64,000 nt of DNA from positions 124,001 through 188,000 of the forward strand of contig JANQPX010000030.1 of NCBI GenBank assembly GCA_028285265.1, in the 5' to 3' direction. The translations under genes and the position numbers were made by a program. Shown piece after piece: positions 21,669 to 36,981 of the stretch; within the stretch, counting starts at the first letter, position 1, and the number at the start of each line of letters is the position of its first letter. The notes below the pieces were generated by a model. That model was not told where the DNA came from. It saw nothing but the letters and a program-made list of their open reading frames with translations, and ran no database searches. The DNA is from Geminicoccaceae bacterium. GTDB lineage: Bacteria; Pseudomonadota; Alphaproteobacteria; Geminicoccales; Geminicoccaceae.

Positions 21669-22574
21669 CTAGGCCTGGTCACCTAGCGCTGGGTTCGATC
21701 GGGCCGATGAGGGCCCATCGATCCGACCGAAATCCGCGATCGTTGAAGCGGTGCTATCCAAAGCTGCAACTTGGCTTCGCGCCAGGGCAGCCAGGAATAT
21801 CGACATATCCTGCTTCGGTATGTCAGAGACGACGGTATAGACCAGTTCACCCTTACGCCAGATCATCGTTCGCAAGCCATCAACCTCATGGGTAGACAGG
21901 CTGATACCGAGCTCCGGGTCGTAGGCGCTGCTGGGTAGGGCGATGTCATGCGCCGTCATGACGTAGACGGCGAGCGACTGGTCGCCCCGCCGATAGGAAA
22001 AGGCGCTCAAACGGCGCTCAAGAAGCCAGCAGAGCCGACCACCAACCAGTTCGAAGCCCGCGACCTTGGCCTCGAGCTTGGGGGCTTCGAAGGTTAGCCG
22101 GCTGGCGAACCAGCTTCGGATGGTTGTTGGATCGCGGCTCGCAATATCCAGGTTACGGCCACTATCGCGATAGGTCGAGAAGTCATGGATGGGCGCAGCG
22201 ATGATCGAGTTTGCCGGTTTCATCCACTGCCATGTCAAACCCGCTGGCAACGCTATCATGATGAGTAGCGAGGCCGCCATGGCCATCTGCCAGACAGGCT
22301 GATTGTACCAGGCCTTCGATTGAGTTGGACGATGATCATCTAGACTTTCGGGCAGGCGCACTTCGATCCGCTTCCAGAGGTCACTCGGCGCTTTGACATC
22401 GCTGAGGCCGGCCTTAATCGTTCTGTTCAACGTCCGAAGATCCTCGACGCTTTGGCGACAAGTCGCGCAATGGTCGAGATGATCGCTGATCATCCTTTTT
22501 TCGTCAGCGCTGCACTCGCCATCGACGAAGGCTTCGAGATCGTAGGTGTTCTTGTTGCAAGGCATCGTAAGCAT
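21669..22574 (-). CDS. Membrane anti-sigma factor with zinc-finger-like domain
   Basis: A 301-residue protein whose N-terminus has the anti-sigma zinc motif H-x3-C-x2-C (His32, Cys36, Cys39). One membrane segment follows at about 93-115, and a 185-residue domain follows outside. This is the layout of an ECF anti-sigma that holds its sigma at the membrane and senses an envelope signal. It lies five bases after the sigma gene. The signal is unknown; Cys residues near the motif would allow redox sensing, but this is inference. Confidence 0.82.
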   Translation of the reverse strand: MLTMPCNKNTYDLEAFVDGECSADEKRMISDHLDHCATCRQSVEDLRTLNRTIKAGLSDVKAPSDLWKRIEVRLPESLDDHRPTQSKAWYNQPVWQMAMAASLLIMIALPAGLTWQWMKPANSIIAAPIHDFSTYRDSGRNLDIASRDPTTIRSWFASRLTFEAPKLEAKVAGFELVGGRLCWLLERRLSAFSYRRGDQSLAVYVMTAHDIALPSSAYDPELGISLSTHEVDGLRTMIWRKGELVYTVVSDIPKQDMSIFLAALARSQVAALDSTASTIADFGRIDGPSSARSNPALGDQA

Positions 22575-22579
22575 TCCCG

Positions 22580-23188
22580 TTAGAACAACGATACCACACG
22601 GGGACTGGTCGTCGTGTCGTGGTGCTCTTTTGCTCTCCGCTCGAGAGTGAGATCGAGCTTTCGCTGAAGATGTTTGCGCGCCCGGTGCAGCTTGGATCTC
22701 ACCGTACCGATCGGCAGATCCAAGCTTTCCGCGGCCTCGTCGTAGGACATCCCTTCGATCAGAATCAAGACAACAACGGCTCTGGGTTCAGGCGCCAATG
22801 TTGCAAGGGCGTCTATGAGAGCCTGTTGTGTGTCGCTGCGCATCGCCTGAACTTCTGGGTTGTCGGCACAGCGATCACTCGACTGGAAGCCTTCGCCTTC
22901 TGCAGGAGCCACGTCGATCGGCACCATTGAGATGGCGGCGTTTCGACGGATGTGATCGATGCAGAGATTGGCGAGAATGCGAAACAGCCAGGCCTTGAAG
23001 TTGGTGTCATGTCGATAACGGGCGAAGTTGGCGTAGGCTTTCAGGCAAGTCTCCTGGACGATGTCTTCGGCAACGGCGTGATCATGGGTCATGCGCAAAG
23101 CGGTTCGGTAGAGACCGTCCAGATGTTGCTGCGCTAACTGGACGAACAGCTTTCGAGATCCTTGCTTTCCCGATGAATCACTCACCAA
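22580..23188 (-). CDS. ECF RNA polymerase sigma factor
   Basis: A 202-residue sigma-70-family regulator with region 2 (DHAVAEDIVQETCLKAY, then FKAWLFRILANLCIDHIRR) and region 4 (LATLAPEPRAVVVLI and MSYDEAAESLDLPIGTVRSKL, the helix-turn-helix). No receiver-type extra domain is seen. It is co-transcribed with its anti-sigma and preceded by an ECF-type promoter (23277-23301), which suggests autoregulation. It is divergent from the Aio-like operon, whose promoter has the same form. Confidence 0.9.
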   Translation of the reverse strand: MVSDSSGKQGSRKLFVQLAQQHLDGLYRTALRMTHDHAVAEDIVQETCLKAYANFARYRHDTNFKAWLFRILANLCIDHIRRNAAISMVPIDVAPAEGEGFQSSDRCADNPEVQAMRSDTQQALIDALATLAPEPRAVVVLILIEGMSYDEAAESLDLPIGTVRSKLHRARKHLQRKLDLTLERRAKEHHDTTTSPRVVSLF

Positions 23189-23301: not shown

Positions 23302-23475
23302 CAAAAAATGAGGAATTCGCTTATTGCGATGATTGGTGCGGGAGATTCGATAGAGTCAGAGTCTTTATCATATTCTGTAACTCATTGAAAAATATAAGTT
23401 TGATGTGATTTTTCGAAGGTTATCGGAGGCCTGAGCCATCTGAAGATTAGAATTCGAAAAAATTTACCATGGTAC

Positions 23476-23500
23476 GGAACTTTCTCCCGAGGCCTTCGTT
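23476..23500 (+). promoter_or_regulatory. ECF-type promoter of the Aio-like operon
   Basis: GGAAC (23476-23480), 16 bases, CGTT (23497-23500), an exact match to GGAAC-N16-CGTT. The expected transcript start is near 23507, before GGGAG (23522-23526) and the GTG at 23535. This also argues that an ATG at 23469 cannot be the real start, because it lies upstream of the promoter. The general stress sigma EcfG of alphaproteobacteria recognises the same core, so it is an alternative user. Confidence 0.7.
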
Positions 23501-23534
23501 TCAGTCAGCAGAGGCCACATCGGGAGATATTGTT

Positions 23535-24101
23535 GTGACAGTTCTAGACAATCAAAATTCGAGTGAAGACATACTTCCATGCATGCGCCGACGCGAGTTG
23601 CTGATGGCCAGTGCCGTCGGGGCAACGGCGGCGACGTTGGCGCCTGGCGTGACCATGGCAGCGACTGAGGGTGGGGCTGGCACCTATCCGCGTCTCTCCG
23701 TGATCAGGATGAGTGATCTCATTGAGGGCGAGCCGGTCGCGTTCAGCTACCCGCTCGAAGAACAGCCCAACATGATCGTCAAGCTGGGAACGCCGGCACA
23801 AGGCGGCGTCGGGCCGGATGAGGACATCGTCGCGTTCAGCGTGCTCTGCACCCATATGGGCGGCAGTTTGCGTGGCAAATACAACCACGAATTCAAGTCG
23901 ATGGGCCCGTGCCCGTTCCATTTCTCGACCTTCGACCTGACCAAGAGCGGCGCGATTGTGCATGCCAGCGCTACCCAACATCTACCGCAGGTGAAGCTCG
24001 AAGTGGACGGCGATGATGTGATCGCCGTCGGCATGAACGGCCTTGTCTATGGCTACCGCGACAATCTCAAGGACGGCTCGCCTGTCGTCATGCAGGGCTG
24101 A
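23535..24101 (+). CDS. Rieske 2Fe-2S subunit of an Aio-like oxidase
   Basis: Small subunit of an arsenite-oxidase-family enzyme, passing electrons from the Mo subunit to a cytochrome. The 188-residue protein starts at a GTG eight bases after GGGAG. A twin-arginine signal (MRRRELLMAS, 17-26) would also carry the large subunit out. The Rieske cluster is Cys105-x-His107 and Cys126-x2-His129. The two extra Cys that form a disulfide in bc1-type Rieske proteins are Gly110 and Phe128 here. It is followed 35 bases later by the large subunit. Confidence 0.85.
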   Translation: MTVLDNQNSSEDILPCMRRRELLMASAVGATAATLAPGVTMAATEGGAGTYPRLSVIRMSDLIEGEPVAFSYPLEEQPNMIVKLGTPAQGGVGPDEDIVAFSVLCTHMGGSLRGKYNHEFKSMGPCPFHFSTFDLTKSGAIVHASATQHLPQVKLEVDGDDVIAVGMNGLVYGYRDNLKDGSPVVMQG

Positions 24102-24136: not shown

Positions 24137-26773
24137 ATGGCGAAACGAAACGATCTTTCTGAGAAACAAGCGGTTAGCCGGCGGGGTCTGCTGCTCGCGC
24201 AGCGCAGCCCCTCGATCGACTATGGTGTCTACCAACCGGCGGTCGACGAGGTGCCGGTGCCGCCTGCGGATGCCGAGGTGCATCCCACAGCCTGCGAATA
24301 CTGCATCGTCGGCTGTGGCTACAAGGCCTACACCTGGCCGGTGGACAAGGAGGGCGGCCCGAAGGCGGATCAAAACGTGTTCGGAAAGGACTATCCGATC
24401 AAACCGGCGAGCGGCAATTGGGCCAGCCCGGAAATGCACAGCATCGTCCGCAAGGACGGCGAGCTGCACAACCTGCTGGTCATTCCCGATGGCGAGACCG
24501 CCGTCAATCGGAAGGGCAATCACTCCGTGCGCGGCGGCCGTTCCGCTCAAAAGCCCTACAGCCCAAACCGACCGACCTCGGACCGCCTGCAGGCACCAAT
24601 GGTGCGCGTGAACGACACGTTGCAGGCGATCTCTTGGGAGGACGCCACCTCGATCATTGCCGAGCTTTCACAATATGCGATCGAAAAGGAGGGCCCGAAC
24701 GCGTTTGGCATGCGCTACTACTCCTATCAGTTCTGGGAGAACACGTTTGCGCTGACCAAGCTGATCTACAAGAACATCGGGACAGCGGTCGGTGCCGAGC
24801 ATGACAAGCCGACGGCTTCCAACGACGCAACCGGTCTTGATGACTGCGGCGTCGACGGCTTCTCGACCTCCTACTCCGACTTCCAGCAGGCCGACGTGAT
24901 CTTCATGTCCGGCTTCGACCCTTACGAAAACCAGACGATCCTGTTTACTGAGTGGATTGCCCCTGGCGGTGCCAAGATCATCTTCGTCAACCCGCGAAAG
25001 AGCCCGACCGCGGTTTATGCGGAGCGGAACGGCGGCCTGCACCTGCAGGTGCAGCCGAACACCGACACGGTCCTGAACAACGCCATCCAGCGCTACATCA
25101 TCGAGCAAGGCTGGGAGGATCGTGAGTGGATCGATCGGATGACGGTCAGCCGCGACGACATCGAATCCGAAGACCCCAAGCACTGGCGCCGCCGGTCGTT
25201 CGGTCAGACCTTCGAAGAGCATAAGGCCTGGCTGCTTTCCGACGACACCTACACGCTTGAAAACGCTGAGCGCATCACCTGGGTGCCGAAGGAAAAGATC
25301 ATCAAGGCAGCCGAGATGCTCGCGCGGCCGCGTGGCAAGCTGCGGACCAAGGCGGCTTTCATGCTAGAGAAGGGCAATTATTGGTCCTTCAACTTCCCGG
25401 CCAGTGCGTCCCTTTCCTCACTCGGTCTGGTCTGCGGCGCTGGCAGCCGGCCCGGTCATAATATGAGCCGCGCTGGCGGTCATCAGCGCGGCGGCATGAA
25501 GGCGGCGGGTTATCCGCTGAAGAAATCCTGGGTGAAATCGAAGCACGGCCGCCAGGGCGAGAACGCCCTGATGCCGGTGAACTTCGATGAATATGCCATG
25601 TCCGGCAAGCTCAAGGTCGCCTGGATCCTCGGCACCACCTGGCTCGACTCGATGAACGCCGCCCAGGCCATCCGGCTGAAGCTGGGCGAGATGACCAGGA
25701 AGCATCCGATCTATCCGGAAAGCCTGGACAAGAATGCAATCGTCGAGGCGTTCAAGCGGCGCATGGACGACGGTGGCATGTTTCTGATCCAGCAGGACAT
25801 CTTCCCGAACTCGCTGACCCAGTTTGCCGACATCGTGCTGCCTGCTGCAACCTGGGGCGAGGTCGACTTCGCACGCGCCCAAGGCGAGCGCCGCCTCCGC
25901 ATCTACTCGCGCTTCAATGATGCGCCGGGTGACGCAAAGCCCGACTGGTGGATCATTGCCCAGGTCGCCAAGAAGATGGGTTACGAGGGCTTCGATTGGG
26001 AAGAGTCCAACGACGTCTTCGAAGAGGCGGCAATGAAGTCCGAGGGTGGTCACTATGACGCCTCCAACCTGGTACGCATTGCCCGGGAAAAGGGCATGAA
26101 GACTCACGAGCTTCTGCGTGAGATGAGCACCACGGGCATTCAGCTGCCCGCCCGTATCGTCAATGGCGAACTCAAGGGAACGCTTCGTCTGCACGACGAG
26201 ACCTTCCCCGCTGAAGAGGTCGACACCGCGCCCAAGATCGTAAAGCAATTCAAGACCGCGAGTGGCAAAGCGATCTTCATGAAGGGCGACTGGGACCTAG
26301 TGAAGGACACCTTCGAGCAGTTCCGTCCGCAAGGGGACGAGCTTTGGGTTTCGAATGGCCGGATCAACCACATCTGGCAGTCCATGTATGACGACGCGAG
26401 GAATCCCTTCGTCAAATCGCGCTATCCCTCGAACTTCCTAATGATCAATCCGGCGGACGCTGAACCGCGCGGCATCGAAAGTGGCGATCTGGTCACGGTC
26501 GAGAACGACAAGGTGCTGAACCAGCTCGGCGAGATGTCCCGTGGTGTTGTCTCCCTCGTCGCCTACGTCACCGACGAGGTGGGCGAGGGTGTTACCTACA
26601 CCTACGCCTTCTATCCCGGCCAATCCGCCGACCTTGTCGTGCCCGCCGTCACCGACCCGGTGACCGGCGTCTACAACTACAAGATCGGCAAGGGCGTGGT
26701 GAAGAAGTCAGGCGAGACGCCGCTCAAGTCGGTCGATGGCAGCATGTCCTTCATTCCACGGACAGTCGGTTGA
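24137..26773 (+). CDS. Aio-family molybdopterin oxidoreductase, catalytic subunit
   Basis: An 878-residue DMSO-reductase-superfamily enzyme, closest by eye to arsenite oxidase AioA (usually about 820-850 residues). The 3Fe-4S motif is Cys53-x2-Cys56-x3-Cys60 (CEYCIVGCGY), with a Ser (HSVRGG, Ser130) where AioA has Ser rather than a fourth Cys. SRAGGHQ (Arg445, His449) matches the Arg and His that help bind arsenite in AioA. In contrast, the region 223-261, where AioA has its His and Glu ligands, holds neither His nor Glu (Thr232 at the His position). The substrate is therefore open. It is exported with the Tat-signalled Rieske subunit. Confidence 0.9.
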   Translation: MAKRNDLSEKQAVSRRGLLLAQRSPSIDYGVYQPAVDEVPVPPADAEVHPTACEYCIVGCGYKAYTWPVDKEGGPKADQNVFGKDYPIKPASGNWASPEMHSIVRKDGELHNLLVIPDGETAVNRKGNHSVRGGRSAQKPYSPNRPTSDRLQAPMVRVNDTLQAISWEDATSIIAELSQYAIEKEGPNAFGMRYYSYQFWENTFALTKLIYKNIGTAVGAEHDKPTASNDATGLDDCGVDGFSTSYSDFQQADVIFMSGFDPYENQTILFTEWIAPGGAKIIFVNPRKSPTAVYAERNGGLHLQVQPNTDTVLNNAIQRYIIEQGWEDREWIDRMTVSRDDIESEDPKHWRRRSFGQTFEEHKAWLLSDDTYTLENAERITWVPKEKIIKAAEMLARPRGKLRTKAAFMLEKGNYWSFNFPASASLSSLGLVCGAGSRPGHNMSRAGGHQRGGMKAAGYPLKKSWVKSKHGRQGENALMPVNFDEYAMSGKLKVAWILGTTWLDSMNAAQAIRLKLGEMTRKHPIYPESLDKNAIVEAFKRRMDDGGMFLIQQDIFPNSLTQFADIVLPAATWGEVDFARAQGERRLRIYSRFNDAPGDAKPDWWIIAQVAKKMGYEGFDWEESNDVFEEAAMKSEGGHYDASNLVRIAREKGMKTHELLREMSTTGIQLPARIVNGELKGTLRLHDETFPAEEVDTAPKIVKQFKTASGKAIFMKGDWDLVKDTFEQFRPQGDELWVSNGRINHIWQSMYDDARNPFVKSRYPSNFLMINPADAEPRGIESGDLVTVENDKVLNQLGEMSRGVVSLVAYVTDEVGEGVTYTYAFYPGQSADLVVPAVTDPVTGVYNYKIGKGVVKKSGETPLKSVDGSMSFIPRTVG

Positions 26774-26790
26774 GAACAGGGAGCGACCTG

Positions 26791-27549
26791 ATGAAGACTT
26801 TCATGACGACAACGGCGCTCTCGGTAGCCGGCGCGGCCGTCCTGGCCATGGGAATCTCTGAACAGAGCCTCGCCCAATCCGCGGTACAGGAGGCGACCGA
26901 CGAACTCCTGGCACTCGGCGAGAAGACCTATATGCGCGAATGCGTGGCATGCCACGGTGCCGAGGGCGATGGCGAGGGGCCGGGCAAATACATCCTGAGT
27001 GAGAAGCCGAGGAACTTCCAGCTCGCCACCTATAAGTTCCGTTCGACGCCGAGCGGCGACGTGCCGTTGCCTGAGGATCTGTTCAAGACCATCACCAACG
27101 GGCTTCAAGGAAACGGTGCCGCGATGCCGGCTTTCGCCTCTCTTTCCGAGGACGAGCGCTGGGGGCTGGTGCATTACATCATCCAGCTTGGCGGCATCGA
27201 GGACGAAGAGCCGGAGGCGATCGAAGTGCCGGCGGAGCCTGAAATCACTGAAGCCAGGCTGGCGAACGGGGCGGACGTCTATAACCGTCTCAAATGCGCC
27301 ACCTGCCACGGCGATGACGGCTGGGGTGACGGTCCGTCCTCTTTGACGCTCAAGAATGATGCCAAGGAGCAGGTTTATCCGACCAATATCGCGATCGGCA
27401 TCTTCAAGGGCGGCACCAGTGGCGTGGAGCTCTATAAACGGATCGCCACCGGTCTCGACGGTTCGCCCATGCCATCTTACGCCGACGAAGCGTCGCCGGA
27501 CGAGATCTGGGACGTCGTCCATTACACGCTGAGCCTGGTCGAAAAGTAG
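26791..27549 (+). CDS. Dihaem cytochrome c
   Basis: A 252-residue periplasmic electron carrier with a signal peptide (about residues 1-29) and two c-type domains: CVACH (51-55) with a later MPAF methionine, and CATCH (169-173) with PMPSY. AGGGAG lies before the ATG, 17 bases after the molybdoenzyme stop. It is the obvious acceptor for electrons from the Rieske subunit. The two domains closely resemble the last two domains of the CcoO fusion at 31446-33185 (shared PRNF, YKFRST, SGSPMPSY-like stretches). Confidence 0.93.
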   Translation: MKTFMTTTALSVAGAAVLAMGISEQSLAQSAVQEATDELLALGEKTYMRECVACHGAEGDGEGPGKYILSEKPRNFQLATYKFRSTPSGDVPLPEDLFKTITNGLQGNGAAMPAFASLSEDERWGLVHYIIQLGGIEDEEPEAIEVPAEPEITEARLANGADVYNRLKCATCHGDDGWGDGPSSLTLKNDAKEQVYPTNIAIGIFKGGTSGVELYKRIATGLDGSPMPSYADEASPDEIWDVVHYTLSLVEK

Positions 27550-27618
27550 AGCGGGGCAATCCGATCTGATCAGGTGTCGAGGATACGCGTCCAAAATGAG
27601 CAAAAAGGAAAACGCGGA

Positions 27619-28356
27619 ATGAAGGCGAGCACATTCACGATGGCCTTGGTCGCGAGCACGGCCCTGGCCGCGACTGCGGCCGAGGCCAAATACAAAGAGA
27701 CCGAGGTCACCGACGGCGGCAGCGTTCAGGGTGCTGTTATGTTCGACGGGGCCGCTCCCGACCTGCCTCTCGCGGAGATCGCCAAGGACAACGAGGTCTG
27801 TGGCGACGGTAGTGTCATTCCCAATCCAGTAACGATCGGCGCAGGCGGCGAGCTTGAAGGTGTGGTGGTCTATCTGGAGGAGGTCAACGAGGGCAAAGCC
27901 TGGCCGGAGCAGGAGTACGTTCTGGACCAGCAGGAATGTGCTTTTGAGCCCTATCTACAGGTGGTGCCGAAAGGCGTCGAAATGACGATAAAGAACAGTG
28001 ATCCCGTCTTGCACAATGTGCATCCCTTCGAGATCGTCGGCGACAAGCGGCGCACACTTTTTAACTTGGCCCAGCCACAGCAGGATCAGGTCAACACCAA
28101 GAAGATCAAAACGCGCAGAGGTAAGGCGGTCGAGCTTGCCTGTGACGCCCACGCTTGGATGGCCGGCTGGCTCTATGTTCTGGAGCACCCATACTACGCC
28201 GTGGTCGGCGCCGATGGCACGTTCGAGATCGGCGACATCCCGCCCGGTGACTATAATCTGGTTGCCTGGCATCCAGTTCTCGGCACCCAGGAACAGGATA
28301 TCCAGATTGCCGCCGGCGGTGCTGCGGACGCGTCGTTCCAATTCATCGGCAACTGA
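27619..28356 (+). CDS. Cupredoxin-like secreted protein
   Basis: A 245-residue protein with a signal peptide. The C-terminal half has HNVHPFE (132-138) and CDAHAWM (Cys175, His178, Met181), which together fit a type-1 copper site His...Cys-x2-His-x2-Met. It resembles plastocyanin-like proteins annotated as methylamine-utilisation or carboxypeptidase-regulatory-like; the final part (IPPGDYNLVAWHPVLG) matches that fold. AAGGAA precedes the ATG. It may be a second electron carrier of the cluster; copper binding is inferred. Confidence 0.75.
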   Translation: MKASTFTMALVASTALAATAAEAKYKETEVTDGGSVQGAVMFDGAAPDLPLAEIAKDNEVCGDGSVIPNPVTIGAGGELEGVVVYLEEVNEGKAWPEQEYVLDQQECAFEPYLQVVPKGVEMTIKNSDPVLHNVHPFEIVGDKRRTLFNLAQPQQDQVNTKKIKTRRGKAVELACDAHAWMAGWLYVLEHPYYAVVGADGTFEIGDIPPGDYNLVAWHPVLGTQEQDIQIAAGGAADASFQFIGN

Positions 28357-28501: not shown

Positions 28502-29443
28502 ATGAATGCGATCACTCACATCCTACTGACGAAAGCCGCGAGGATAGGCGCGGTCGCTACAGTCGCTTTCGGCTTTCCGTCAGGTGCGGCCTTGGCCTCC
28601 GACGATGTCGAAACAGTGCTCAAATCCTATCTGCGCGCCCTTTACAGCCGTGACGCACAAACAGCTTACGAACGCCTCTCGTCGATGGATCATTCCATCA
28701 AGACATTTGATGAGTATGCGCAGGAGGTCGGCGCGTTTGACGGCCCTGCGCTGGTCGTCGCCAAAGCACTCGCCGAGCAGATCGACTTCGGTGCCTTTGA
28801 GATCGAAGAGGCGGACGATCACGTCGACGTTACCTTCGACGTCACCCTTCCCAATGCCAACGATCCCGCCATCAAGGAGATGATGCGCAGCTTTGACGCC
28901 AAACGGCTGAGCGAACTGACGCCGTCAGAGATCGAGACGCTGATGGCCGACATCGAGACGATGCGTTTGACCGGTGGGCTTCCCGTGCTCGAATCCGAGG
29001 GCGAGCGCTGGTCGCTGGTGCGCGAAGGCGATCAGTGGCGCGTTTTCGAGAACTGGGCAGAGGCGGTCGAGGTCCGTTTCGATGCCGCGACCTTCCACGA
29101 TTTGCCATGGGAATTCGAGCCCGTGCGCACGCGCGTGATGGCGAAGCATGGTGAAACCATCCAGATGGCCTATCGCGCCAGGAATGTCGGCGACGAAGAG
29201 ATCACGGCGAAGGCACGGCACATCATTGGACCGGACGACGATGCCGATTTTCTCGACATCATTTCCTGCTTCTGTTTCCTCGAAGAGACCCTGGCGCCGG
29301 GCGAAGCGACCGAGTTGAGTCTGGTCTTCAGGGTGGACTACGAGGCGCCCGACGACGCCACGGCCTTCACTGTCAAGTACGAATTCTATCCGGCCGAGCG
29401 CTTTCCCGAGGTCGAGCAAGCCCATGCGCGGGGCCAGCGCTGA
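28502..29443 (+). CDS. Secreted protein: NTF2-like region fused to a Cox11/CtaG domain
   Basis: A 313-residue protein. Residues 1-33 are a signal peptide, and about 34-185 form a region with the feel of an NTF2-like or SnoaL-like fold (LKSYLRALYSRDAQTAYERL, then GDQWRVFENW). Residues about 200-305 match Cox11: LPWEFEPVRT, GETIQMAYRARN, and the copper-binding CFCF (256-259) followed by LAPGEATEL. Normal Cox11 is anchored by a membrane helix and delivers copper to the CuB site; here the helix is replaced by this other domain. AGGGG lies before the ATG. It overlaps the next gene by one base. Confidence 0.8.
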   Translation: MNAITHILLTKAARIGAVATVAFGFPSGAALASDDVETVLKSYLRALYSRDAQTAYERLSSMDHSIKTFDEYAQEVGAFDGPALVVAKALAEQIDFGAFEIEEADDHVDVTFDVTLPNANDPAIKEMMRSFDAKRLSELTPSEIETLMADIETMRLTGGLPVLESEGERWSLVREGDQWRVFENWAEAVEVRFDAATFHDLPWEFEPVRTRVMAKHGETIQMAYRARNVGDEEITAKARHIIGPDDDADFLDIISCFCFLEETLAPGEATELSLVFRVDYEAPDDATAFTVKYEFYPAERFPEVEQAHARGQR

Positions 29444-29964
29444 TGCCTGCCTTCGGCCCGAAAGCGCGGCTTTTCGCGGCGATCGTTTTCTTGGCGCTGT
29501 CGACTGCCGCTTGGGCGAGCGGGCCGATGGGCGACCTTGAGGTGCGCGTCACCGACCACAAGCCTGGCATCGATCAGTTTAGCGCGCTCGATGTCACGCT
29601 TAAGGCAGTCGCTTTGCATGAAAAAGGGCAAGGGCGTCGCGAAGGCTGGCGGGACATCGCTGGGCCGTCACCGGCGATCGACATCGTCCCGCTCAAGGAC
29701 GGCGTCTACGAATCGTTGGGCTCCGTCCGTGTGCCGACCGGCGCCTATGACGCCGTCGCCGTCCGTTTCGACAAGGTCGACGGTGAGCTGAAGTCCGACT
29801 ACGAGCCGACCATCTGGCTCGAGGATGCGATCGTTCGCATCGACCTTGCCATCACCGAGCAGGAGAACTTGCCGCTGGTCGTCGATCTCTATGCCGAAGA
29901 CCAGACCGAGCATGATCCGCCACGCTATGTCGTCAAGGTTAAGGAGGTGCGTCTCGGTGAGTAA
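29443..29964 (+). CDS. Secreted DUF4382-like protein
   Basis: A 173-residue protein with a signal peptide ending near AAWASG. The body is beta-rich (GDLEVRVTDHKPGIDQFSALDVTLKAVALHEKG) and resembles DUF4382, a periplasmic family of unknown role. No cysteine pair or haem motif is present. It overlaps the Cox11-domain gene (TGATG) and precedes ccoN by 35 bases. A role in assembling or stabilising the oxidase is suggested by position only. Confidence 0.6.
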   Translation: MPAFGPKARLFAAIVFLALSTAAWASGPMGDLEVRVTDHKPGIDQFSALDVTLKAVALHEKGQGRREGWRDIAGPSPAIDIVPLKDGVYESLGSVRVPTGAYDAVAVRFDKVDGELKSDYEPTIWLEDAIVRIDLAITEQENLPLVVDLYAEDQTEHDPPRYVVKVKEVRLGE

Positions 29965-29999
29965 TGCCGCCGCGCGCCCGTCAGGGGAAAGAAGAGTGC

Positions 30000-31433
30000 A
30001 TGTCTAACGCAGCCGCAATGCCGACGATGAACTCACAGGAACTGGATGATCTCGTCGACAGACCGCTTGTCCGAAAGTGGCTGCTGACCGGCATGTTCTG
30101 GCTCATGTTCGGGCCGACCGTCGGCGCCGTCATCTCCACCTTCTTCAACTACCCCGACTATATGGGCACGGCGCTGGAGCTGCAGTTCGGTCGCCTTCGC
30201 CCGCTGCATGTGAACGGCGTGATCTTCGGCGCCTTCTCCACGCTGTTCATCGGCCTTTGCTACTACGTCGTGCCGCGCCTCTGCGGCGTGCGCGTCGTCT
30301 GGGAGGATTGGGCCCACCGTCTTTGCTGGATCTGGAACCTGACGCTCGCCGCCGGCATGGTGTCGCTCGCTTTCGGCTACAACCAAGGTCTCGAAGCAGG
30401 CGAGTTTCCGTTCTTCGTCGATCTCGTCATCTTTGTCGCGATCACCTTTCTTTGCGCGCAATTCCTGGTAACTACGGCGAACCGCAAGGAGCCGCAGCTC
30501 TACGTTTCCATGTGGTATCTACTCGCCGGCTTTGTCTGGACCGTGATGACGATGATTCTGGGCTCGTTCATCCTGCCCTACTTCATCTCCGGCATCTCGA
30601 GCGCCGCCTTCCACGGCCTCTATATCCACTACATCGTCGGTCTCTGGATCACGCCCGCTGGCTACGTCCTCATCTACTACTTCCTGCCGGCAGCCGTGCA
30701 GAACCCGATCTACAGCCACAAGCTCTCCCTGGTCGGCTTCTGGTCGCTTGCCCTCTTCTACCCCTTCGTCGGCATTCACCACTATCTCTACTCGCCGATC
30801 GCGGATTGGGCGGAGACGCTGGCGATCATCACCTCCATGCTGCTGATCATCCCTGTCTGGACCGTGCTCCAGAATTTTTTCGGGACGATGATCGGCCGCT
30901 GGCGCGACTTCGGCAAGAACCTGCCGGCCAAGTTCTTCATCATGGGCTCGATCATGTATCTGATCGGCTGCTTCCAGGGCTCGACCGAGGCGCTGCGCTC
31001 GATCCAGGAGCCGACCCACTTCACTGACTTCGTGATCTCGCACTCCCACCTCACGATCTTCGGCACCTTCGTGGTCTGGGCGGTGGGTGGCCTGGTTTAT
31101 GTCTGGCCGAAAATCCACGGCCGCGAACTCTGGTCGTTCAAGGCGGGCAACTGGTCGTTCTGGCTGATTACGTTAGGCATCAGCACCATGGGCATCGTGC
31201 TGACCGCGCAAGGCCTGCAGCAGGGTTACATGTGGATGGCTGGCGTCGAGTGGATGGACTCGCTTGTACCGCTCAAGGCGTTCTGGTTCACCCGCACCGT
31301 CGCGGGAATCATCATGGATCTCGGCATGACGCTGCTGGTCTACAACCTGATCCGCACCGCGATGCCTGAAGAGTCGGTCTCACCTGAGACCACCGGGACC
31401 GCGTCGCCTGTGCCATCTCCCGCGACTGCCTAG
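30000..31433 (+). CDS. ccoN: cbb3-type cytochrome c oxidase subunit I (CcoN)
   Basis: Catalytic haem b / haem b3-CuB subunit of a cbb3-type oxidase, reducing O2 to water. The 477-residue protein starts at an ATG preceded by GGGGAAAGAAG. It has about 12 membrane helices. Ligands are visible: His70, His210 (YIHYIVGLW), His260-His261 (GIHHY), His348 and His350 (SHSH). The catalytic Tyr of the cbb3 class lies six residues before the HH pair (Tyr254). The gene lies inside the Aio-like block, 35 bases after the DUF4382-like gene. Confidence 0.94.
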   Translation: MSNAAAMPTMNSQELDDLVDRPLVRKWLLTGMFWLMFGPTVGAVISTFFNYPDYMGTALELQFGRLRPLHVNGVIFGAFSTLFIGLCYYVVPRLCGVRVVWEDWAHRLCWIWNLTLAAGMVSLAFGYNQGLEAGEFPFFVDLVIFVAITFLCAQFLVTTANRKEPQLYVSMWYLLAGFVWTVMTMILGSFILPYFISGISSAAFHGLYIHYIVGLWITPAGYVLIYYFLPAAVQNPIYSHKLSLVGFWSLALFYPFVGIHHYLYSPIADWAETLAIITSMLLIIPVWTVLQNFFGTMIGRWRDFGKNLPAKFFIMGSIMYLIGCFQGSTEALRSIQEPTHFTDFVISHSHLTIFGTFVVWAVGGLVYVWPKIHGRELWSFKAGNWSFWLITLGISTMGIVLTAQGLQQGYMWMAGVEWMDSLVPLKAFWFTRTVAGIIMDLGMTLLVYNLIRTAMPEESVSPETTGTASPVPSPATA

Positions 31434-31445
31434 CGAGTAGAAACA

Positions 31446-33185
31446 ATGCTTACTATGAACCTCAGAACGGTCTCGCTGGTCGCCGGTTTCGGCTTCGTCA
31501 CGCTCGCGACCTTCACCCAGGGCGTTCTGCCGATGCTCGAGCCGCAAACGCTGACCGACAAGGTGACCCGCGTGGTGCGCACCGATCTCGGTGAGCTGAA
31601 ATGGATAGAAGCCCAGGCGGTCGACTACACGCCCGAAGAACAGATGGGCCGGGACATCTATATCCGCGAGGGCTGCTGGTACTGCCATTCGCAATATGTC
31701 CGTCCGGTCACCGGAGAGACGCTGCGCTGGGGGCCGATCACCCAGGCCGGTGAGTATGCCTATGATACACCACATCTTTTCTCGACACGGCGCATCGGCC
31801 CCGACCTTTCGCGTGTGGGTCTGAAATATTCGGACGAGTGGCACTATGCCCACTTTTGGGATCCGCGCATGATCATCCCGGAGTCGATCATGCCGCGTTT
31901 TATGAAGCTGTTCGATGCGCCCGAAGAACCTGTGGCCGTGGTCGACGGTCCGGATGGTCTCAAGACCGTCGAGCAGAATGAGGTCACCGAGGCCATTTTC
32001 GACTTTTCCAAAGCCGGAGATGCGGCTGCACATCTCAAGATTACCCCCAATCAAGACGGCCTCTTGTTTGTACCGGAGCGCGGAAAATATCCCGTGATCT
32101 GGACACCGAACGATGAGTTCACTGGAGACAACGTCGAGCTTGCCGTGGTGACCGAGGAACTGACGTCGCTGGTCGCCTATCTGCAAAAGCTCGGCATGAA
32201 TCGTGGCAAATGGCGCGATGTGTTCGCCTCGCAGACCGCGGATATCAGCCAGGTGAGCTTGGAAAGAGATGAGGAGTGGATCGGGCTTGGGCGGAAGGTC
32301 TATGACCGCCGCTGCGCTGGCTGCCACGGCGTCGAAGGAGACGGCAATGGCCCGGCGGCGACTTTCACCTACCGGGACCGTCCGCGCAATTTCAACCAGG
32401 CTGTGTTCAAATTCCGATCGACGGGCTCCGACTCGCTGCCGACCGATGGTGATCTGCTGCGAACTTTGGTGAGAGGCGTTCGCGGCACGTCGATGCCAGC
32501 CTGGCACATGCTGTTGGAGAAGGAACGCCAAGCGGTCATTCAATATATCAAATACGAACTGGCCGTGGATCGCTCGGATCCTGAAGATCCTTATGTGATC
32601 TTCGAAGAGGAGGAGCCTGAGGAGCCCATCCATATAGCCCGTGCGCCCGAACCCGACGAGGACATGATCGCCGAAGGCCAGGAGATCTGGCAGCAGGCCA
32701 AGTGCTGGGAGTGCCATGGCGAGACTGGCAAAGGCGATGGCCCGAAGTCTGTAGGCTTGAAGGACGACAACAAGTTTCTGATCTGGCCTGCCGATCTGAC
32801 CACTGGTCAGTTCAAATCAGGACCGTCCGTGCGGGATATGTTCCGCACGATCTCCAATGGACTGAGTGGATCGCCGATGCCGTCTTACTCGGACTCGTTT
32901 GACGAAGATGAGCGCTGGGCGCTTGCTTACTACGTGATGTCGCTTTCCTCCTTTACCGATCCCTTGAGCCGCAAGCCGCTCGTCATCGACGACGCCGATC
33001 GCGACGCACTGAACGATCCTGATCTTGAGGCGCGTCGATCAGAAGACGCTTACAAGCCGGAGAAGGCCATCGCCGACTCGAACACGCGCTATGGCGGGAA
33101 TGCCTGGGCGAAGCGGCGCGGTATGGAGGTTATCGGCGATGCGAATGCCGACGAGACACGGACGTTTGAGATCAAGCAGCAATGA
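31446..33185 (+). CDS. CcoO fused to a dihaem cytochrome c module
   Basis: A 579-residue membrane protein. Residues 1-250 match CcoO: an N-terminal helix, CWYCH (77-81), SQYVRPVTGET, RIGPDLSRVG, DPRMIIPESIMP. Two further c-type domains follow, CAGCH (290-294) with GTSMPAWH and CWECH (420-424) with SGSPMPSY. In usual cbb3 oxidases the two extra haems sit on CcoP, a separate subunit. Here they are on the same chain as CcoO. The C-terminal tail (about 500-579) is hydrophilic and unlike known domains. Confidence 0.9.
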   Translation: MLTMNLRTVSLVAGFGFVTLATFTQGVLPMLEPQTLTDKVTRVVRTDLGELKWIEAQAVDYTPEEQMGRDIYIREGCWYCHSQYVRPVTGETLRWGPITQAGEYAYDTPHLFSTRRIGPDLSRVGLKYSDEWHYAHFWDPRMIIPESIMPRFMKLFDAPEEPVAVVDGPDGLKTVEQNEVTEAIFDFSKAGDAAAHLKITPNQDGLLFVPERGKYPVIWTPNDEFTGDNVELAVVTEELTSLVAYLQKLGMNRGKWRDVFASQTADISQVSLERDEEWIGLGRKVYDRRCAGCHGVEGDGNGPAATFTYRDRPRNFNQAVFKFRSTGSDSLPTDGDLLRTLVRGVRGTSMPAWHMLLEKERQAVIQYIKYELAVDRSDPEDPYVIFEEEEPEEPIHIARAPEPDEDMIAEGQEIWQQAKCWECHGETGKGDGPKSVGLKDDNKFLIWPADLTTGQFKSGPSVRDMFRTISNGLSGSPMPSYSDSFDEDERWALAYYVMSLSSFTDPLSRKPLVIDDADRDALNDPDLEARRSEDAYKPEKAIADSNTRYGGNAWAKRRGMEVIGDANADETRTFEIKQQ

Positions 33186-33194
33186 GGCCAAGCG

Positions 33195-33356
33195 ATGTTT
33201 GAACAGACAATCCTTCAATTCCTCGTGGCCGCGTTTATGAGCTTGGGCGGTGTGTGCGTATTCATCTGGGCGGTTCTCTCCGGTCAGTTCAATGGGATCG
33301 AAGAACCAAAATATCGCGTCTTCGAGATGGAGAGGGATGACGATGTCCGACAATAG
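33195..33356 (+). CDS. ccoS: CcoS-like oxidase assembly protein
   Basis: A 53-residue protein with one membrane helix. The stretch VFIWAVLSGQFNGIEEPKYRV matches the CcoS signature FIWAVxSGQFDDLExPAYR. In known systems CcoS is needed for cofactor insertion into CcoN. The stop overlaps the next gene's start by 14 bases. Too short for a long-frame search but well supported by motif and place. Confidence 0.85.
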   Translation: MFEQTILQFLVAAFMSLGGVCVFIWAVLSGQFNGIEEPKYRVFEMERDDDVRQ

Positions 33357-33540
33357 TTCCGGTCATAATAAGGACGTGCCGCATCACCAGCAGGTCGAGA
33401 GCTATGGCGGCGGCCATATTGAGGCGCGTCACGGACGGGTCAATCTCTGGCTCGCCCTCGTCTATCTCATCATGTTCATCTGGGCGATCTACTACGGCTT
33501 CACATATTGGGGCGGTCTCGGCCCCGGCCTCGACTACTAA
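33343..33540 (+). CDS. CcoP-like single-helix membrane stub without haem motifs
   Basis: A 65-residue protein: a hydrophilic N-terminus rich in His (VPHHQQVES), then one membrane helix (VNLWLALVYLIMFIWAIYYGF), then GGLGPGLDY. This layout resembles the N-terminal membrane part of CcoP, which ends in a Trp/Tyr-Pro-Gly stretch before its cytochrome domain. There is no CXXCH. The two cytochrome domains may have moved to CcoO, leaving the membrane part as its own gene. The start overlaps ccoS. Confidence 0.7.
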   Translation: MSDNSSGHNKDVPHHQQVESYGGGHIEARHGRVNLWLALVYLIMFIWAIYYGFTYWGGLGPGLDY

Positions 33541-33874: not shown

Positions 33875-33979
33875 CTGTGTGACCACGTCGTGGACGTTGA
33901 CCGCCAGTGTCTGGATTGATGGTATGTCGCCTGGTTTGAGATGGTCAGCGATGTGGCGATTTGTTGCGACAGGGCCGAC

Positions 33980-34777
33980 ATGAGTGCCTTTCTGGTCGCT
34001 ATGTTGGCAGGTGTCGCCGGCAGTTTTCATTGCGTTGGCATGTGCGGCGGCTTCGCCTGCGGCCTTGCCCAGGCGCGAGGGGGGCCAAGATCCGCATTTG
34101 TGATCCAAGGCCTTCTCTACAATACTGGCCGTGTCGTCAGCTACGCCTTCATCGGCGCCCTTGCCGGGCTTCTTGGGCATGTGCTCATTGGCGGGCATGC
34201 GCATTCGGTAGGTGTGGCCCCGAACTTCGCCGCGATCGCTATGGATGCCACGACACATGGCATGATCACGGCTGAGCTGATGCCGGAGCCCCACGGCATG
34301 GTTCTGGCTGGCGAGATCGGCTGGGCGCAGCGAAGCCTGTCCATCCTTGCAGGGTTGCTGATGCTGGTGATGGCCTCGGAGCTCTTGGGCCTGCGCCGTC
34401 GAGCCCCCGCAAACTGGACAAGACTAGGCAGCGAGGGCTTCGCCAAGGTTTTTCGTACATTGTTGACATCCAAGCGCCCAACAGCAGCGTTGGCGCTCGG
34501 TGTTGCCAATGGATTTTTGCCCTGCCCGTTGGTCTTCGCCTTCGCTGCGGCGGCCGTCGCCACTGGAACCGTCGTCGATGCGGTCCTGCTGATGACCGCC
34601 TTCGGACTTGGCACCTTTCCAGCCATGTTTTTCATGGGCACCGTCGGTTTCTTCATGACGCCCGTGGCGCGCAAATGGGGTGTGCGCTTTTCCGGCGTCT
34701 TTGTCCTGGCAATCGGGCTGGTGACCTTCATACGCGGCCTTGCGCCGAACCTGCTGCATGGCATGCACATGACATGA
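33980..34777 (+). CDS. SafE/TauE-family membrane protein of a cbb3 cluster
   Basis: A 265-residue protein with about seven helices. The N-terminus has GSFHCVGMCGG, and a later GFLPCPLVFA; these Cys-containing helices are usual in the SafE/TauE (UreH-like) members that sit beside ccoGHIS genes. Start chosen at the ATG in front of MSAFLVAML. Such proteins are proposed to move or hand over copper for oxidase assembly, but the substrate is not proven. It overlaps the ATPase gene by four bases. Confidence 0.85.
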   Translation: MSAFLVAMLAGVAGSFHCVGMCGGFACGLAQARGGPRSAFVIQGLLYNTGRVVSYAFIGALAGLLGHVLIGGHAHSVGVAPNFAAIAMDATTHGMITAELMPEPHGMVLAGEIGWAQRSLSILAGLLMLVMASELLGLRRRAPANWTRLGSEGFAKVFRTLLTSKRPTAALALGVANGFLPCPLVFAFAAAAVATGTVVDAVLLMTAFGLGTFPAMFFMGTVGFFMTPVARKWGVRFSGVFVLAIGLVTFIRGLAPNLLHGMHMT

Positions 34778-36981
34778 CAGATTTGCCGGCCAGGACCTCG
34801 ATTTCTGATTTTGCCAACGCTGACGCCGTCGAAGGCGCATCCGCAGCTTCTCCGTTCTGCGATCACTGCGGTCTGCCGCTTGGGCGTCTGGACTATCGGC
34901 GCGACGACGAAGATCAGCCTGTACAGTTCTGTTGCTACGGCTGCTATATCGGCTGGCAGGCGGCGAGAGGCGGTGGGGATGATGTCGCCGCGGTCGGCTT
35001 TTTGATTCGCTTGGGCGTCGGCGCCTTCCTGGCGATGAATATCATGCTCTTCAGCCTGCTCCTCTACACAGGCGCGCTCGACGGTATCGATCTCTGGCTG
35101 AAGCCCTACGTGCACGGTCTTCTCTGGATTTTGGCAACGCCGGTACTGATTATCCTCGGAGGACCATTTTTTAGAGAAGCGATCACCGGTCTTATCGACG
35201 GCAGGCTTGTATCATCCGTCCTGGTCGTGATTGGCACGTCAGCGGCTTATGCCTATTCGGCCATTATCACGTCGCAGGGCGGCGATCGCGTTTACTTCGA
35301 CGCCGTGGCCCTGATCTTGGTGCTCTTCACCCTTGGCCGATATCTGGAAGCCGAAGGCCGCGCCCGTGCCGCGCGCAGCCTTCGGCCCTTCCTCAATGCC
35401 GAACAGCTAAAGGTACGTTGCCTCATCGATGATCGCGAGCTTGTTCTGCCACTTGCAGAAGTGACACCAGGCATGCGGGTTCGGATCGAGCCTGGCGAGC
35501 GCACGCCGGTCGACGGTAAGGTGATTGAGGGTGTGTCGACGGCCGAGGAATCATCGCTCACCGGTGAACCCTGGCCTGCAGAGAAACAACCGGGTGCGGA
35601 CGTGCTCGCCGGCAGTTACAATGGGGATGGTGTTCTCATCGTCGAGGCGACGGCTCCCGGCCTCAACTCTCGCTGGATCACCATCTGCCGAGAAGTTCGA
35701 CAGGCCCTGTCGCAGCCGACGCACTTGCAGCGGCTCGCCGACAAGGTTGCTAGGCTGTTTGTGCCCTCGGTGATGATCATCGCTGTCGTTGCGGCTTGGT
35801 TCAACGGCCATGACGGAACGATCGATGCCGCCCTTTTGTCCGGCCTTGCCGTTCTCGTCGTCGCCTGTCCCTGCGCGCTTGGCCTCGCCTCGCCGTTAGC
35901 CACCAGCATGGCTGTCGGTCGCTTGGTCGAGGCTGGTATCACGCTTCGCCACGGCCTTGCACTTGAGGCTCTCGCGAGCGTGCGCACAATGGCCCTGGAT
36001 AAAACCGGCACGCTCACCGCTGGTCATATCACATGTCGGGAGACGGTCGACATCGCTGCTGATCCTTGTGACGGCTTGTGGCGCGCCGTCAGCCTCGCGG
36101 TTCATTCGAAACATCCGATCTCCAAGGCCATCTGCCGAACGGCCGCTGAGCACGGTATTGAGGGCTGTGCGGCTTCGGAGGTCGAGATCGTACCGGGCAT
36201 GGGTATTCGCGGCACTATCGACGGTGAGATCGTGATCTTGGGCAATGCGCGCTGGCTTAAGAGCGCAGGGATCGATCTGCCGGAGAGGGTGCAAAGAAAG
36301 ATGATCGCGGCGACAGAACAGGGACGGATGCTCGTCTTGGTCGGCTGGAACGGACAGGCGCGCTTCCTCATGACCTTCGACGACGTCAACCACCCCGATG
36401 CAGAGGCGCTGATCAAGATCCTCCGGAATGACGGCGTACACACCATCGTTCTTACCGGCGATGGCAAGCAGCAGACGGAACGGTTTTGTCGCTCGCTGGG
36501 CATCGATCACTGGTTTGCGGAGACCACGCCCGAAGGCAAATGCGCTGTTTTGGACGCCATTGCGGCGAATCGACGGCCGCTCGCCATGGTGGGAGATGGA
36601 GCCAACGACACGACAGCGCTGACCCGCGCAGACGTGGGCATCGCCGTGGGCAGCGGCACGGATCTGGCGCGTGAAACCGCTGACATCGTGCTACCGTCAG
36701 CAGGAATCGCTGCATTGCCCATCCTCCTTCGGCTGGCGCGTGTCACCAAAAGAACGATTGCGACGAACCTCACCTGGGCTTTCGGCTACAACATTATCGC
36801 CATCGGTCTCGCCACAGCCGGTCTGCTCCAGCCGATCATCGCTGCCACCCTCATGGCCGGTTCTAGCCTCGCGGTCGTCGCCAACACCGTGATGAGACTA
36901 GCACCAGGGGATCAAGTGGGAGGTTCGGGAAGACCTTCGCCACGTCAATCATCGGCGGGAGGGGCCGTATCAGCGCAATGA
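34774..36981 (+). CDS. ccoI: CcoI-type copper-transporting P-type ATPase
   Basis: A 735-residue P1B ATPase that exports copper for oxidase assembly. The N-terminus has CDHCG (29-33) and CCYGC (53-57), the metal-binding arrangement typical of CcoI. The transmembrane CPCALGLASP, the phosphorylation site DKTGTLT and GDGANDTTAL are present. The ATGA overlap with the preceding SafE gene shows coupled translation. Neither ccoG nor ccoH is seen beside it. Confidence 0.95.
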   Translation: MTDLPARTSISDFANADAVEGASAASPFCDHCGLPLGRLDYRRDDEDQPVQFCCYGCYIGWQAARGGGDDVAAVGFLIRLGVGAFLAMNIMLFSLLLYTGALDGIDLWLKPYVHGLLWILATPVLIILGGPFFREAITGLIDGRLVSSVLVVIGTSAAYAYSAIITSQGGDRVYFDAVALILVLFTLGRYLEAEGRARAARSLRPFLNAEQLKVRCLIDDRELVLPLAEVTPGMRVRIEPGERTPVDGKVIEGVSTAEESSLTGEPWPAEKQPGADVLAGSYNGDGVLIVEATAPGLNSRWITICREVRQALSQPTHLQRLADKVARLFVPSVMIIAVVAAWFNGHDGTIDAALLSGLAVLVVACPCALGLASPLATSMAVGRLVEAGITLRHGLALEALASVRTMALDKTGTLTAGHITCRETVDIAADPCDGLWRAVSLAVHSKHPISKAICRTAAEHGIEGCAASEVEIVPGMGIRGTIDGEIVILGNARWLKSAGIDLPERVQRKMIAATEQGRMLVLVGWNGQARFLMTFDDVNHPDAEALIKILRNDGVHTIVLTGDGKQQTERFCRSLGIDHWFAETTPEGKCAVLDAIAANRRPLAMVGDGANDTTALTRADVGIAVGSGTDLARETADIVLPSAGIAALPILLRLARVTKRTIATNLTWAFGYNIIAIGLATAGLLQPIIAATLMAGSSLAVVANTVMRLAPGDQVGGSGRPSPRQSSAGGAVSAQ

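Follow-up and report, generated by a model that had tools for sequence, protein, structure and literature searches.

The closest described relatives of the operon considered here are the iodate reductases IdrAB, encoded together with the peroxidases IdrP1 and IdrP2 in Denitromonas iodatirespirans IR-12, Pseudomonas SCT, Azoarcus DN11 and Roseovarius azorensis, and the arsenite oxidases AioAB of Alcaligenes faecalis and Rhizobium/Pseudorhizobium NT-26. The idrABP1P2 arrangement has been reported in all neighbourhoods of the idrA clade (PMC8692401). IdrB is described as carrying a Tat signal and a Rieske motif of the form CxHx18CxxH (motif definition from PMC10149662), and Idr activity is sensitive to O2 (PMC11445184). 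H2O2 and hypoiodous acid have been proposed as the by-products of iodate reduction (PMC10149662); what the two IdrP peroxidases do in iodate respiration has yet to be settled (PMC11445184, PMC10149662). In perchlorate reducers, a cbb3 oxidase removes O2 that is made by the pathway (PMC10746228). For AioA of NT-26, it has been established that His199, Glu207, Arg447 and His451 are hydrogen-bonded to Mo=O, and that the second sphere also contains Asp169, Arg201, Lys413 and Glu453 (PMC10448176). The first two of these residues correspond to His195 and Glu203 of the A. faecalis enzyme. Finally, a clade next to IdrA in a tree published in 2021 (Halorubrum, Dehalococcoidia; PMC8692401) resembles the present enzyme by description only, as a deep branch near the Aio/Idr split; its Dehalococcoidia member has no peroxidases (PMC8692401).

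The present operon lies in a stretch of 64,000 nucleotides from a Geminicoccaceae bacterium (hereafter, the window), on an 826 kb contig of a genome (G000) of 8.5 Mb with an estimated contamination of 6.95%; members of the family mostly have 2 to 6 Mb. The idrABP1P2 arrangement is already known; a cbb3 oxidase in the peroxidase slot of an Idr-type operon, as found here, is a new variant.

Organization of the operon

The genes follow the order of Table 1, with the ECF/anti-sigma pair divergent here. The sigma factor gene adjoins the operon in six of seven relatives, and the dihaem cytochrome c gene is common to all eight members of the clade defined below. The two enzyme subunits carry the features by which IdrA and IdrB are recognized: the Cx2Cx3C...S motif for a 3Fe-4S cluster in the catalytic subunit (878 residues) and, in the Rieske partner, a Tat signal (MRRRELLMAS), the CxHx18CxxH spacing of IdrB and an IdrB-type CTHMGG loop. 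An earlier sequence-only reading had placed the 3Fe-4S motif at Cys53, Cys56, Cys60 and Ser130 and an Arg445/His449 pair in SRAGGHQ, and both assignments agree with the sequence. The operon differs from the canonical IdrAB loci in lacking IdrP1 and IdrP2, in having a dihaem cytochrome and a cbb3-type oxidase module, and in its ECF/anti-sigma pair, many canonical idr loci having a histidine kinase and sigma-54 instead. Neither aio regulators nor arsenic genes were seen beside it.

Table 1. Genes of the Idr-type operon and its divergent regulators (window coordinates).
Feature	Coordinates	Strand	Evidence
Anti-sigma factor (zf-HC2)	21669..22574	-	Pfam; synteny
ECF sigma factor, divergent from operon	22580..23188	-	Pfam Sigma70_r2/r4; synteny
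IdrB-like Rieske 2Fe-2S subunit	23469..24101	+	TIGR02694 123 bits; CTHMGG loop; synteny
IdrA-like Mo-bisPGD catalytic subunit	24137..26773	+	3Fe-4S motif, pocket alignment, profile match, tree, predicted fold
Dihaem cytochrome c (CVACH, CATCH)	26770..27549	+	Pfam; haem motifs; synteny
Cupredoxin with C-terminal carboxypeptidase-regulatory-like domain	27574..28356 (ORF coordinates)	+	Motif alignment; model
Cox11/CtaG-type CuB chaperone fused to N-terminal domain	28502..29443	+	PF04442; PRK05089
DUF4382 secreted protein	29443..29964	+	PF14321; synteny in L053 and L148
cbb3-type oxidase subunit I (CcoN-like)	29964..31433	+	E 9e-55 to solved cbb3 oxidase
CcoO-like subunit fused to C-terminal dihaem cytochrome c	31446..33185	+	PF02433 + PF00034; motifs
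Small membrane protein of oxidase module	33250..33540 (ORF coordinates)	+	48% identity in L053
DsbD_2-type membrane protein	33941..34777	+	PF13386; synteny in L053
CcoI-like copper P-type ATPase	34675..36981 (ORF coordinates)	+	TIGR01511; 43% identity in L053

The cupredoxin retains invariant His147, Cys190, His193 and Met196 (CxxHxxM), and in its model (pLDDT 87) it resembles amicyanin and purple cupredoxin. Its true start is probably the internal ATG of MKAST; that of the small membrane protein is probably likewise an internal ATG, and the CcoI-like ORF, which overlaps the DsbD_2-type ORF, probably starts further downstream.

The region 29964-33185 is of the cbb3 type, as the CuB histidines, active-site Tyr and haem ligands of subunit I align with those of solved cbb3 enzymes and the adjoining subunit is of the FixO type (PF02433). 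Subunit I scores 226 bits with the CcoN equivalog model, against a cut-off of 583 bits. Its identification as a nitric oxide reductase was rejected (E 3e-8, compared with 9e-55 for cbb3). The Glu of the FEG motif found in cbb3 subunit I is replaced by Gln (FQG), possibly altering a proton pathway. The CcoI-type copper ATPase and Cox11-type chaperone are further likenesses to known cbb3-type oxidases, from which the module differs in having no separate CcoP; a dihaem cytochrome is instead fused to CcoO, giving three CxxCH motifs in all in the fusion. The DsbD_2-type protein probably serves in assembly of the oxidase.

The pocket of the catalytic subunit

The sequence-only reading had proposed that two arsenite ligands, a His and a Glu, were lost from this enzyme, on the grounds that residues 223-261 contain neither residue and that the His position reads Thr232. 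The first statement is literally correct; the stretch is not, however, where the ligand lies, because the ligand His222 is one residue before it. Thr232 faces the next His along, NT-26 His209, which is absent from the second-sphere residues listed in PMC10448176. In an HMMER phmmer alignment to 4AAY and a MAFFT alignment of 100 sequences, NT-26 His199, Glu207, Arg447 and His451 align to His222, Asp230, Arg445 and His449. Thus three of the four Mo-proximal residues of AioA are kept, the fourth is changed conservatively, from Glu to Asp, and none of the four is missing. Loss of the His can be rejected outright, His222 being invariant in 100/100 aligned sequences. A His and a Glu at both ligand positions had been named as the result that would speak against the proposal; the alignment gives a His and an Asp, and so that outcome in part.

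That the pocket is changed nevertheless stands, for a reason other than the one given. The remaining second-sphere residues of NT-26 AioA, Asp169, Arg201, Lys413 and Glu453, align to Ser196, Lys224, Lys412 and Arg451 by both methods, so that together with Asp230 there are four differences from AioA, and the acidic funnel of Asp169 and Glu453, with Arg201, is not found. The eight second-sphere positions read DHREKRHE in AioA (10/10 sequences) and SHKDKRHR in all eight members of the clade to which the window protein belongs. The latter is identical to IdrA of Denitromonas IR-12 (L100), a genetically verified iodate reductase, and to Idr of Notoacmeibacter marinus (L092), for which iodate reduction has been shown (PMC11445184). 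A further 82 Idr-side sequences (NT-26 numbering) all have the Ser, the His, Lys413, Arg447 and His451, and 81 have Arg453. At position 207, 65 of them have Asp and 15 Ser; at position 201, 52 have Lys. As judged by these alignments, the enzyme keeps a complete pocket of the iodate-reductase type, not a broken arsenite-oxidase pocket. The loss of two acids and the gain of an Arg at the funnel would suit an anion better as substrate than the neutral arsenious acid.

Other likenesses to AioAB are more general: the fold, the 3Fe-4S motif, the set of His222, Arg445, His449 and Lys412, and the expectation in both enzymes that there is no protein ligand to Mo. The predicted fold (pTM 0.87) has arsenite oxidases as its best PDB matches, with TM about 0.8. 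The GGAG loop of AioA is absent from the window protein, which is about 30% identical to AioA, as against 45-48% to IdrA.

Lineage and spread

In an IQ-TREE analysis of 36 sequences, AioA and the Idr side are split by a long branch with 100/100 support. The window protein falls on the Idr side, and the AioA clade has support of 100/100 without it, so that the protein lies outside the arsenite oxidases; a place inside the verified arsenite oxidases was the other result that had been named as speaking against the sequence-only reading. With seven others (L053-L059) it forms an eight-member clade (100/100; 62-80% identity), the named hosts of which include Hyphomicrobiales, Granulosicoccaceae, Minwuiaceae and Pelagibius sp. 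Alg239-R121. Grouping of this clade with the verified iodate reductases is rejected by a tree test (p=1.6e-30), and a tree in which it branches first on the Idr side is not rejected (p=0.09); its placement relative to a few Chloroflexota and Actinomycetota sequences is weakly resolved (81/70, 88/81). The tree thus assigns the catalytic subunit to the Idr side of the Aio/Idr family but outside every verified iodate reductase. Membership among canonical iodate reductases was not accepted, given this placement and the lack of idrABP1P2 synteny.

Samples of 385 genomes from the class, 31 from the order and 398 from the phylum yielded no further clade member beyond the window's own. The genes from the Rieske subunit through the DsbD_2-type protein have a third-codon-position GC of 0.71-0.85 and the copper ATPase gene one of 0.67; in the genes adjoining the operon it is 0.58-0.68. 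This raised GC, together with the spread of hosts and the pattern of sampling, suggests that the operon was acquired horizontally.

Several other family members were encountered. Deep Idr-side enzymes with the same Arg453-type pocket occur in Chloroflexota and Actinomycetota MAGs (L060, L061, L080, L111, L127) and are possibly the uncharacterised clade of the 2021 Idr paper; L127, which has sufficient flank, has no IdrP peroxidases nearby. A Planctomycetaceae idrA (L119) has no recognisable idrB or peroxidase within 10 kb. A plasmid of Vibrio sp. THAF190c carries an Idr-type catalytic gene (NZ_CP045339.1, 1544767-1547388; 40% identity) at a place where the plasmid gene table has no feature. 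The window's own genome also encodes a catalytic subunit of the type II DMSO-reductase family (L007, contig C75; TIGR03479, 1295 bits, above the family cut-off).

Exchange of peroxidase and oxidase

Outside the clade, two IdrP-type peroxidases are present in 48 of the 50 Idr-side loci with enough flank, a cupredoxin is adjacent in 29, and a CcoN homologue in none. Within the clade, operons of two types occur. Five genomes (L054, L056-L059) have one IdrP2-like cytochrome c peroxidase directly after the cupredoxin, and three (the window, L053 and L055, the last continued on the overlapping contig L148) carry the oxidase module there instead. In these three genomes the cbb3-type module stands in place of the peroxidase: genome searches gave no IdrP orthologue in any of them, the best match being 33-40% identical, compared with 64-100% in the peroxidase-type genomes. 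For the window, IdrP is found in neither operon nor genome. A distant IdrP supplied from elsewhere in that genome was rejected, the sole candidate being a general peroxidase on another contig (MauG/CCP-type, dihaem; L145 6097-7161, contig C18), 36-39% identical to IdrP. A small cupredoxin-like protein (L145 5222-5797) adjoins this gene, far from the idr-like operon. The converse, an oxidase module elsewhere in the peroxidase-type genomes, was also rejected; subunit I matches there are only 23-25% identical (30% in the L054 genome).

The L054 operon is informative as to what has been exchanged. Its catalytic subunit is 79% identical to that of the window and nests among the oxidase-type sequences; monophyly of the oxidase-type idrA without L054 is rejected (p=0.005). 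Its cupredoxin is 39% identical to that of the window and groups with the peroxidase-type cupredoxins at 100/99. On these trees the cupredoxin and the terminal module were exchanged as one unit, which suggests that the cupredoxin delivers electrons to the terminal module.

Possible functions

Our best reading, a tentative one, is that an Idr-type enzyme reduces iodate, or an oxyanion like it, when oxygen is low, and that the oxidase takes on the work of the peroxidases. As we infer it, the IdrAB-like dimer would be periplasmic, with the Rieske subunit providing the Tat signal for export. The dihaem cytochrome c and the cupredoxin would donate electrons to the Rieske centre, from which they would reach the 3Fe-4S cluster and then the Mo site, where an oxyanion, most likely iodate, would be reduced. 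The cbb3-type oxidase, fed by its matched cupredoxin, would take over from the IdrP peroxidases by consuming O2, either ambient or arising from peroxide or hypoiodite by-products. Low-oxygen reduction is favoured because the enzyme shares its pocket with a verified reductase, its sister lineage works reductively, Idr is O2-sensitive and has the proposed by-products named above, and perchlorate reducers provide a precedent for the cbb3 oxidase. The guess in the sequence-only reading that the substrate is something other than arsenite, and that it may be reduced, gains support from the IdrA-type pocket, the Idr-side placement and the IdrB-type Rieske spacing, although its premise of lost ligands was wrong. 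Against iodate reduction are the position of the clade outside the verified iodate reductases, the ECF/anti-sigma pair in place of the regulators beside many canonical idr loci, and the lack of a chlorite-dismutase homologue, none being found in the window's genome. In addition, a terminal oxidase dedicated to one enzyme is found more typically in modules that are oxidative and lithotrophic. No experiments on any clade member were found in the literature searched.

A further point against iodate reduction is that two genomes of the clade also hold a canonical two-peroxidase idr locus (L161 in the L058 genome, L162 in the L059 genome), although both are MAGs, in which mixing is possible. As these genomes hold the window-type enzyme besides idrABP1P2, it is probably not redundant with canonical Idr and probably has a distinct job. 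An AioA bearing the arsenite signature (L160) is present in the L058 genome too, so that this Hyphomicrobiales MAG appears to hold three family members: AioA (G390:C141), canonical idrABP1P2 (G390:C152) and the window-type enzyme.

Alternatively, the operon might be an aerobic oxidation module, in which arsenite, antimonite, nitrite, sulfite or selenite would serve the Mo enzyme as an inorganic donor and electrons would pass via the Rieske subunit, dihaem cytochrome and cupredoxin to the cbb3 oxidase and O2. We consider this rather unlikely, but it is the main rival to our reading, carries real weight and has several points in its favour. Lithotrophic operons have this layout, a Mo enzyme accompanied by an oxidase, a cupredoxin and a cytochrome; a complete oxidase is co-located with its own copper-assembly genes and kept in three genomes; the cupredoxin is matched to it; and canonical Idr, in one case with an arsenite-type AioA as well, is already present in two MAGs. 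In NT-26, replacing Asp169 or Glu453 by alanine costs the enzyme only 30 or 65% of its activity, respectively (PMC10448176), so that changes at those positions are compatible with arsenite as substrate. On the other hand, the pocket matches the reductase IdrA, not AioA, at 8/8 positions, close relatives hold in the same slot a peroxidase, which is not an obvious terminal acceptor, and the operon has no aio regulators or arsenic genes seen beside it. With less probability again, an Idr-type enzyme might oxidise an anion other than arsenite. The anion could be an iodine species or some other oxyanion, and the enzyme would then constitute, along with the cytochrome, cupredoxin and cbb3 oxidase of its operon, an undescribed, horizontally spread module for aerobic lithotrophy.

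A strict arsenite oxidase, the name that the NCBIfam equivalog model would give, is very unlikely. The protein scores 476.6 bits with this model (TIGR02693, cut-off 359), its fold is closest to Aio and three of four Mo-proximal residues are identical. However, TIGR02693 covers Idr too, and a plasmid idrABP1P2 locus bears the same product name; four of the eight second-sphere residues differ from those of all AioA examined and match IdrA, to which the sequence identity is also higher. Plain AioA was rejected on the pocket residues and the tree. Least probable of all is the oxidation of iodide to iodate by an IdrA-type enzyme in reverse, with high-potential electrons passing via the cupredoxin to the cbb3 oxidase: an IdrA-type pocket does occur here alongside a partner that reduces O2 and a carrier with type-1 copper, and textbook potentials make the net reaction with O2 exergonic, but the iodate/iodide couple, which we calculate at about +0.67 V at pH 7, is higher in potential than ordinary c-type cytochromes, so that transfer through the dihaem cytochromes would have little driving force, if any, and we know of no evidence for any Idr working in that direction.

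Implications for the Idr family

The scores obtained here carry a warning, as the arsenite-oxidase family model labels enzymes of the Idr lineage as arsenite enzymes. More generally, the exchange of the peroxidase for a cbb3 oxidase with a matched cupredoxin makes the question of what the IdrP peroxidases do a testable one. The expectation would be that both modules take electrons from the same carrier and remove oxygen-derived species, or else that the enzyme runs in the opposite direction.
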